The notes under the pieces were generated by a model. The model saw only the letters and a list, made by a program, of their open reading frames with translations. It made no database searches and was not told the origin of the DNA. Position numbers and translations under genes: made by a program. From Chlorogloea sp. CCALA 695 (lineage in GTDB: Bacteria; Cyanobacteriota; Cyanobacteriia; Cyanobacteriales; Chroococcidiopsidaceae), in the NCBI RefSeq assembly GCF_003003885.1, contig NZ_PVWN01000010.1:1-64000 (forward strand): a stretch of DNA of 64,000 nt, given 5' to 3'. The number at the start of each line of letters is the position of its first letter. The stretch's first letter is position 1. Shown one piece after another: positions 2,090 to 3,348 of this stretch.

Positions 2090-2120
2090 TGTAGAGACGT
2101 TGCACTGCAACGTCTCTACA
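2090..2120. repeat. Palindromic repeat, 15-bp perfect arms
   Basis: A perfect inverted repeat with arms TGTAGAGACGTTGCA and its complement around a single central C. It covers the TAG stop codon of mutM (2116-2118), so the last codons of the gene lie inside the palindrome. The same core occurs at 5641-5670 and 35483-35510. It can form a strong hairpin but lacks a clear U-run, so a terminator role is only possible. Confidence 0.8.
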
Positions 2121-2961
2121 AATAGATTTTTCCCTGACAGTGGGGGCAAAAGTGAGATGATCGCCCAGCTAACCTAATTCGCTCAATTGGCGTACCGCAA
2201 ATTCGACAAGGGTTGCCTGTGCGGTTGTAAACCCATGCTAGACCGCCATAATTGCCGTTAATCCCTTCTACGTTCAAAAAATCGCTAAAAGTAGTCCCAC
2301 CTGCCGCAATACTGGCTTCTAGTACCTGAATAATCGCCGCTCTTAATGCTGTTATTTGCTCAATTTGCAAGCAATTACATAATGTTGCCGGGGGGATTTT
2401 AGCGATAAATAATGCTTCATCTGCGTAAATATTGCCAATTCCCGCAATAATTGTTTGATCTAACAAAGCTGCTTTAATCGAACGGCGGCTATTGCTGAAC
2501 TTTGCCGCTAAATATTCTCCTGAAAACTCAGCACTGAAAGGATCTAAACCTAATTTTGCAAGTCCTGTAATTACTGAATAAATCGGTTTTTCTGGGGGAA
2601 CCCACCACATTTGACCAAAGGTGCGTTGATCGACAAATCGTAATTCGCGATCGCCTCCAAAAAATAATCTTACTCGCGTATGCTTATGTAATAGCGCAGT
2701 AGGATGAACCCAAAGCAATTGTCCAGTCATCCGCAAATGTACGCCAAGATAGCTACAATTACTTAACTGTGCCAGCAAATATTTACCCTGACGTTGCCAG
2801 TTAGCGATTACATTTTTTTGCAATCCCTTTAAAAATTCATCATTAGAAAGCGGGTAGGCGATCGTGCGACTAAGTAGCACATCGCCCCCCGTAATTTCTT
2901 GGTTTAGTGTAACTTTATCTAAACCGCGCCGGACTGTTTCAACTTCAGGCAGTTCAGGCAC
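2116..2961 (-). CDS. mutM: Formamidopyrimidine-DNA glycosylase
   Basis: Base-excision repair enzyme that removes 8-oxoguanine and formamidopyrimidines and nicks the abasic site. The 281-residue product begins with MPELPEVE, with catalytic Pro2 and Glu3. It has the helix-two-turn-helix block around LDQ..IAGIGNIYADE, and ends with a four-cysteine zinc finger (CRIC ... CPHC) near residues 252-275. Length is normal. It starts 3 bp after the psaE stop codon on the same strand, so the two are probably co-transcribed. Repair of oxidised DNA next to a photosystem I gene is plausible but not evidence of a functional link. Confidence 0.95.
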   Translation of the reverse strand: MPELPEVETVRRGLDKVTLNQEITGGDVLLSRTIAYPLSNDEFLKGLQKNVIANWQRQGKYLLAQLSNCSYLGVHLRMTGQLLWVHPTALLHKHTRVRLFFGGDRELRFVDQRTFGQMWWVPPEKPIYSVITGLAKLGLDPFSAEFSGEYLAAKFSNSRRSIKAALLDQTIIAGIGNIYADEALFIAKIPPATLCNCLQIEQITALRAAIIQVLEASIAAGGTTFSDFLNVEGINGNYGGLAWVYNRTGNPCRICGTPIERIRLAGRSSHFCPHCQGKIYL

Positions 2962-2964
2962 AAT

Positions 2965-3348
2965 TTACCGAGATTCCGTACCTTGGTTAGCATCGCCAAC
3001 TACTACACCACTGCTATCGCCAGACTCTGGACTAGCAGCCGGGTTAGAAGCTTTTGGACTTGAAGGCGTACCTTGCCCTGTGGTGCGGGTGCGCTCGTCC
3101 AGGGTGGTTTGCTGACCGCCAGGAGCCGCCGTAGAGGCTTTTTTGGCTTTTGCTGTTGGTTTTGCTACTTCCAATAGTTCGCTGGTGGCGAAGTTATTGG
3201 TGTTTACACCTGCATAATTGAGGTTAGTGAAGCGCACAATTACCGGATAGCGAATGCCACTTTGGTCAATTGAAGCTACTGTTCCGGTATCTTGAAACCA
3301 GTAAGATTCTGGTCTGAGAACCCGCACTTTAGAACCACGTTCTACCAT
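2965..3348 (-). CDS. psaE: Photosystem I reaction center subunit IV (PsaE) with C-terminal extension
   Basis: PsaE is a stromal-side PSI subunit that helps dock ferredoxin and supports cyclic electron flow. Residues 1 to about 63 form the usual SH3-like domain, with [21 protein letters not shown], and [11 protein letters not shown]. Ordinary PsaE proteins stop at roughly 65-75 residues. This one continues to 127 with a Lys/Ala linker and then a Pro/Ser/Thr/Gly-rich, probably disordered tail. The frame is open throughout, with no sign of frameshift. mutM follows after 3 bp. The core identification is very secure; the role of the tail is unknown. Confidence 0.93.

Follow-up and report, generated by a model that had tools for sequence, protein, structure and literature searches.

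Why does the PsaE subunit encoded at this locus carry a long C-terminal tail, and what could such a tail do at PSI, a membrane complex that has been characterized as thoroughly as almost any other? The gene lies in a 64,000-nucleotide stretch of DNA from Chlorogloea sp. CCALA 695 (the window), in which six features bear on the question:

2965..3348, minus strand: psaE, an ORF of 127 codons plus stop that reads from 3348 to 2965 and is the only PF02427 match in the genome
3166..3348, minus strand: PsaE core, residues 1-61, short-loop type (PF02427, AlphaFold2 and PDB matches)
2968..3165, minus strand: tail, residues 62-127 (tail profile E = 5.3e-23), homologous to free-standing small proteins
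3070..3123, minus strand: mid motif of the tail, residues 76-93 (T81, R88 and T90 constant)
2968..3006, minus strand: C-terminal motif, residues 115-127 (pN/pS = 0.16; Q, G and T constant)
2116..2961, minus strand: mutM, an ORF starting MPELPEVETVRRG, the gene-order reference for the split locus in genome G475

The core is a regular PsaE (PSI subunit IV). PF02427 matches residues 2-61 over the whole profile with 113.5 bits (cut-off 27), and NCBIfam PRK02749 matches with 102 bits (cut-off 88). The model has the SH3-like fold, its best structural match being 9eys_E (Z = 13.3, 65 residues, 0.7 A), and the AlphaFold2 and PDB matches to PSI PsaE chains span residues 1-66. In the AlphaFold2 model the block means fall from 90-94 (residues 1-60) to 74 (residues 61-70) and 40-62 (residues 71-127), as would be expected if the tail were disordered, which it probably is. 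A Lys/Ala linker comes first in the tail, and A, S, T, G and P together account for 42 of the 66 residues. An earlier note on this DNA had described an intact core with just such a disordered, in-frame extension, and this description holds. The note's length of 55-60 residues is too short, and the interval that it gave (2965-3155) covers most of the tail but not the whole gene. Among named relatives, the PsaE of Aliterella atlantica (order Chroococcidiopsidales) is 90% identical and that of Gloeocapsopsis crepidinum 72%. The psaE stop is followed after a gap of 3 nt by mutM on the same strand; the name mutM rests on the resemblance of its N-terminus to that of MutM. A promoter scan around psaE gave nothing above chance with bearing on the tail. 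Within its own genome the tail profile matches psaE alone (E up to 10), and a DNA pattern of the motif matches psaE and one other site, with one match also for the backward control.

A sequencing frameshift near 3150, which the earlier note had raised as a possible artefact, is untenable because the tail is present in relatives, in loci of a phylum-wide sample and in a deposited protein chain. The best 80 of 231 relatives' loci were kept, a biased set in that the scan behind it used tail peptides among its patterns, and 79 of them show the tail; the 80th (L078) ends at a contig end. Seventeen loci of the phylum sample besides the window's own also have it, some from genomes that overlap with the 80 relatives. 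The 126-residue PsaE chain 7qco_V in the PDB matches the query with E = 1.4e-59, and the window tail is matched over its whole length there (tail profile E = 4.9e-23); no essential difference is seen between the two proteins. This chain was not among the 50 matches listed in either structure comparison, and the available part of PMC8760143 mentions PsaE once without printing 7QCO. The short cyanobacterial PsaE chains of Anabaena (6jeo) and Nostoc (1qp2) resemble the window core and share its short loop. These 70-residue chains align over query residues 1-70 and end where the window tail begins.

The tail is under selection as a protein. Across 178 pairs with 80-97% identity, pN/pS is 0.16 for the core and 0.25 for the whole tail, within which the linker (0.29), mid motif (0.22) and spacer (0.30) are followed by a final stretch of 13 residues (GDxNQGTExR-COOH) that is constrained to the level of the core (0.16). 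The Q, G and T of NQGT occur in 79 of 79 complete tails, and T81, R88 and T90 are invariant across all 55 non-redundant sequences. One tail (G157) has a degenerated middle and keeps the terminal NQGTE. This conserved terminal motif fits a tail that may reach a putative stromal partner, for which the ferredoxin, NDH-1 and neighbouring PSI of the earlier note would be no more than candidates.

How widely such tails occur was read from a phylum sample of 181 genomes with PsaE, drawn regardless of tail, of which 129 genomes gave 131 loci; family f25, by our own naming presumably the marine picocyanobacteria, was thinned to 16. The comparison across cyanobacteria that the earlier note had proposed finds an NQGT-type tail in 18 of these loci, spread over 10 family codes, another tail of at least 25 residues in 10, and a short PsaE in 103. 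All 18 tailed proteins have the short loop, in which Y45 and TNN are four residues apart. Tails are absent from all 57 long-loop proteins and from 56 short-loop proteins (n = 131; Fisher p = 1.4e-5, with kinship ignored).

Other PsaE extensions are of different kinds. Three loci of family f7 (L141, L184 and L190) have Ser/Gln- or Lys/Gln-rich tails of 75-93 residues that are unrelated to the NQGTE tail. L185 (G072:C33), the second of two psaE genes in its genome, encodes 350 residues, comprising a PsaE core and about 289 residues that appear in part membrane-like. Tandem psaE pairs occur at L458 (G499), L460 (G679) and G633:C210; in the first two a long tail rich in Ala, Lys and Asn ends the second copy, and one copy in G633 is long-looped.

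A profile of 22 tails (A1) was compared with 70 genomes. It matches the tailed psaE in 22 genomes and also separate short ORFs in 13 others, all with untailed PsaE. The best E values for these free ORFs range from 7.0e-18 to 1.5e-11, with 1.4e-8 in G334. The tail is homologous to these free small proteins of other cyanobacteria, which have 55-79 residues and form two types, one exemplified by MSEEKK...TASGGYQTPLQEDIRKTGD...GSPNQGTESR (type I) and the other by DPEDNPGTxT...DTPLDERYRMTGQE...NQGTESR (type II). In two of the 13 genomes, G078 and G385, type II is the only intact form; G385 also has a type I gene, which contains a stop. The window tail fits this free NQGTESR small-protein family, a name coined here, by its T(P)..(D/E)...R.TG pattern and its C-terminal NQGT(E/D)xR (alignments A4 and A3), and it scores 71.8 bits with the joint profile (A4). 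Contrary to what the earlier note had implied, the tail is not peculiar to the window PsaE, occurring in 10 family codes and as a free homologue.

The free ORFs look like genes because 27 of 38 are preceded by a Shine-Dalgarno-like site, as compared with 11% of random positions, and because pN/pS across ten type I genes is 0.12 for the final ten alignment columns, against 0.65 for the rest (pS at the end is 0.76 and near saturation). AlphaFold2 gives the free protein a mean pLDDT of 60 and a pTM of 0.13 with a ten-row alignment. No Pfam or NCBIfam family matches the free proteins, and no PDB chain other than 7qco_V matches the module. Among the open-access full-text matches listed, which leave subscription papers outside their scope, nothing was found on a cyanobacterial PsaE tail or on the free proteins. 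What is new here is that the PsaE tail is also found as a free-standing gene that belongs to no Pfam or NCBIfam family.

The fused and free forms rarely meet. The joint profile matches 129 of the 388 genomes of the class at E up to 0.1 and 114 at E up to 1e-6. At the stricter threshold, with status taken from open-frame length except in fetched loci, the module is fused in 59 genomes, free as type I in 56 and free as type II in 11. Fused and type I forms occur together in only two genomes of one genus, where 8.5 would be expected if they were independent (hypergeometric p = 0.0036, kinship not corrected). One of these exceptions (G296, L384) has a free type I-like ORF that lacks the NQGTESR end; the other is G598. 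Three pairs of genomes (G060/G413, G296/G434 and G417/G540) appear to be duplicates. Fused and type II forms occur together in nine genomes, which suggests that the family also has a role independent of the fusion. All 28 long-frame matches that were fetched are PsaE, and no other fusion partner was seen among them.

A single locus joins the two arrangements. Genome G475 has, in this order and on the same strand, a short psaE (L427, 657-878), a type I gene in free form (ATG at 1471, stop at 1663-1665) and mutM (from 1937), so that the module occupies the place between psaE and mutM that the tail has in fused genomes, but as a separate gene. This is the only one of 38 distinct free loci read in which psaE lies within about 1.5 kb of the free gene; free genes mostly sit among unrelated genes. 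Either fusion or fission may have led from one arrangement to the other: in a tree of tails and free proteins the two forms interleave, but no more than one or two changes are required by the starred branches.

The fused and free forms go together with a short-loop PsaE and were seen in no genome without one. Among the 70 genomes, the 13 free-only ones all have it, and those with neither form are 13 with a short loop and 22 with a long loop. The module is dispensable, given that these 13 of 70 genomes have short-loop PsaE without either form. A second set consisted of 35 additional genomes with type I and 45 controls, the latter being genomes not listed with an A4 match; here the length of the matched stretch (174-183 or 198-207 nt) gave the loop type, with a check on fetched loci. 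All 33 type I genomes with a PsaE match have the short loop, one of them with an additional long-loop copy, against 25 short and 19 long among the 44 controls with a match (Fisher p = 5e-6). Kinship inflates this association: 24 of the 33 belong to family f26, and the gyrB tree has only three supported independent pairs. The contrast holds in families f18, f22 and f43 (seven type I genomes short, six controls long); controls are also short in f49 (four) and f26 (one).

By fusion, near-exclusivity and one gene-order case, the module is tied to short-loop PsaE. From the first two we infer that the free protein may share the function of the tail. The chances seem evenly balanced that a small disordered protein, encoded separately elsewhere, is fused to PsaE here as its tail and acts at the stromal face of PSI. 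A fuller version is possible, if still doubtful, in which an undescribed PSI protein, a disordered peptide of 55-79 residues, is bound in trans by short-loop PsaE or fused to it and recruits an acceptor-side partner with its C-terminal NQGTExR. The module would then act at the stromal ridge of PSI. The free protein would act on PSI at PsaE, where the short loop may leave a surface for its binding, and fusion would tie to PSI what binds in trans elsewhere. The NQGTExR-COOH peptide would dock the stromal partner, with the remainder serving as a linker and a second contact (the GGKQT..DE..R.TG motif).

Ferredoxin or FNR would be the first choice for this candidate partner because PsaE serves both, with the phycobilisome or antenna as the second. 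According to the available portions of these papers, PsaC, PsaD and PsaE flank the site where ferredoxin binds (PMC8689207), and PMC13322767 cites a PSI-ferredoxin-FNR complex that depends on PsaE. The latter portion also reports that in Cyanidioschyzon merolae cross-links join FNR to PsaD, and the PsaE tail both to Lhcr1 and to core subunits, which would favour an antenna or PSI contact as well. That tail, a Lys-rich, flexible and unresolved C-terminal "fishing hook" (PMC13322767, section 7), is the nearest published idea. As far as that section goes, both are flexible C-terminal PsaE extensions, but the hook has nine Lys in 33 residues and the window tail five in 66. The strongly positive character of the red-algal tail, with about a quarter Lys, is not found in the window tail, which has a net charge of +2 (mean of the tails, +2.2). 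The NQGTExR end is common to the tails described here, and that section mentions neither the motif nor a free homologue.

When one module is found fused in some genomes and free in others, a physical partner is the classic explanation, here putatively one at PSI, and being disordered the module could escape notice in structures. A candidate small protein is now named in lineages that include genetically tractable relatives. If the model is true, it would offer a direct test of electron or antenna steering at the acceptor side of cyanobacterial PSI.

The module might instead have no particular link to PSI and be incidentally fused to PsaE, as a small protein of general stress or hydrophilin-like type or as an unspecific tag for C-termini. 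Its hydrophilic, low-complexity sequence without a predicted fold, the scattered location of the free genes and the coexistence of type II with the fused form would all agree with this. Such an incidental origin nevertheless seems unlikely given PsaE as the sole fusion partner among the 28 long-frame matches fetched, the near-exclusivity of fused and type I forms, the split locus in G475 and the restriction to short-loop PsaE.

A part in the association of neighbouring PSI complexes, as an oligomer or array element, would suit the stromal position and the tail in the deposited PsaE of 7qco, which we take to be the tetrameric PSI of Chroococcidiopsis TS-821. Tetrameric Anabaena PSI (6jeo and 6k61), however, has a short PsaE of 70 residues. 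A PsaL linker motif has been tied to PSI tetramers (PMC8760143, in the part available), and by a rough version of this motif both classes occur among the tailed genomes: 7 of 22 have it and 15 do not show it, one of these without a PsaL match. The tail was accordingly rejected as an oligomer marker, and its reaching a neighbouring PSI, as the earlier note had envisaged, is weakened to something quite improbable.

Still less probable is a tail that is nearly neutral and merely tolerated. On a gyrB tree that covers 70 genomes, tail presence needs at least 14 state changes, which indicates frequent loss or transfer, and in G354 a Pro/Ala tail stands in place of the NQGT type; against this are the constraint on the end motif and the retention of the tail in 11 genomes beside a second, untailed psaE. 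Conservation at the DNA level, for instance as a translation signal for mutM 3 nt downstream, is already contradicted by the use of two to four codons for each constant residue, by the low pN/pS and by persistence of the motif in free genes elsewhere and in tailed copies without mutM in the available flank.

The genomes with a second psaE are 11 of 49 with a tailed copy (represented by 50 of the 80 relatives' loci minus L016), and each second copy is untailed and long-looped. The untailed copy adjoins mutM in 10 of these genomes; in the remaining one (L356) it lies at a contig end. Nine of the 11 tailed copies have no mutM in the available flank, and mutM follows the tailed copy in L022 and L025, the latter with tailed and untailed psaE in tandem. 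A PsaE core tree meant to separate gain from transfer was set aside, having 55 columns, three starred branches and three misplaced rows. Plasmids gave neither PsaE nor type I matches and viral contigs gave no matches; among phages, one Prochlorococcus phage psaE (two records) matched over residues 2-58 alone.

No consistent neighbour of tailed psaE emerged at 20 of the 80 relatives' loci, where 20 neighbour proteins were scanned with Pfam. Bestrophin, serpin, NdhD-like, pyridine-nucleotide oxidoreductase, RlmN and CorA genes are among those present. At L051 (156-2405) the NdhD-like gene (Proton_antipo_M) directly follows a tailed psaE, a single case. A lipoprotein-like gene lies nearby in five of the 20 loci (L023, L031, L033, L074 and L076); its members in L031 and L033 match DUF6658, and that in L074 matches no family.

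Two further observations concern other genes. Matches to gyrB split near query residue 439 inside one open frame of about 1,080-1,100 codons (for example L298, L300-L304 and L311-L314), as for an in-frame insertion, which is presumably an intein. PsaL domains occur in open frames of about 490-565 codons (G005:C41:164593, G039:C21:96040, G338:C1:3238454 and others), so that PsaL is fused there to something larger, which we take to be an IsiA-type antenna.
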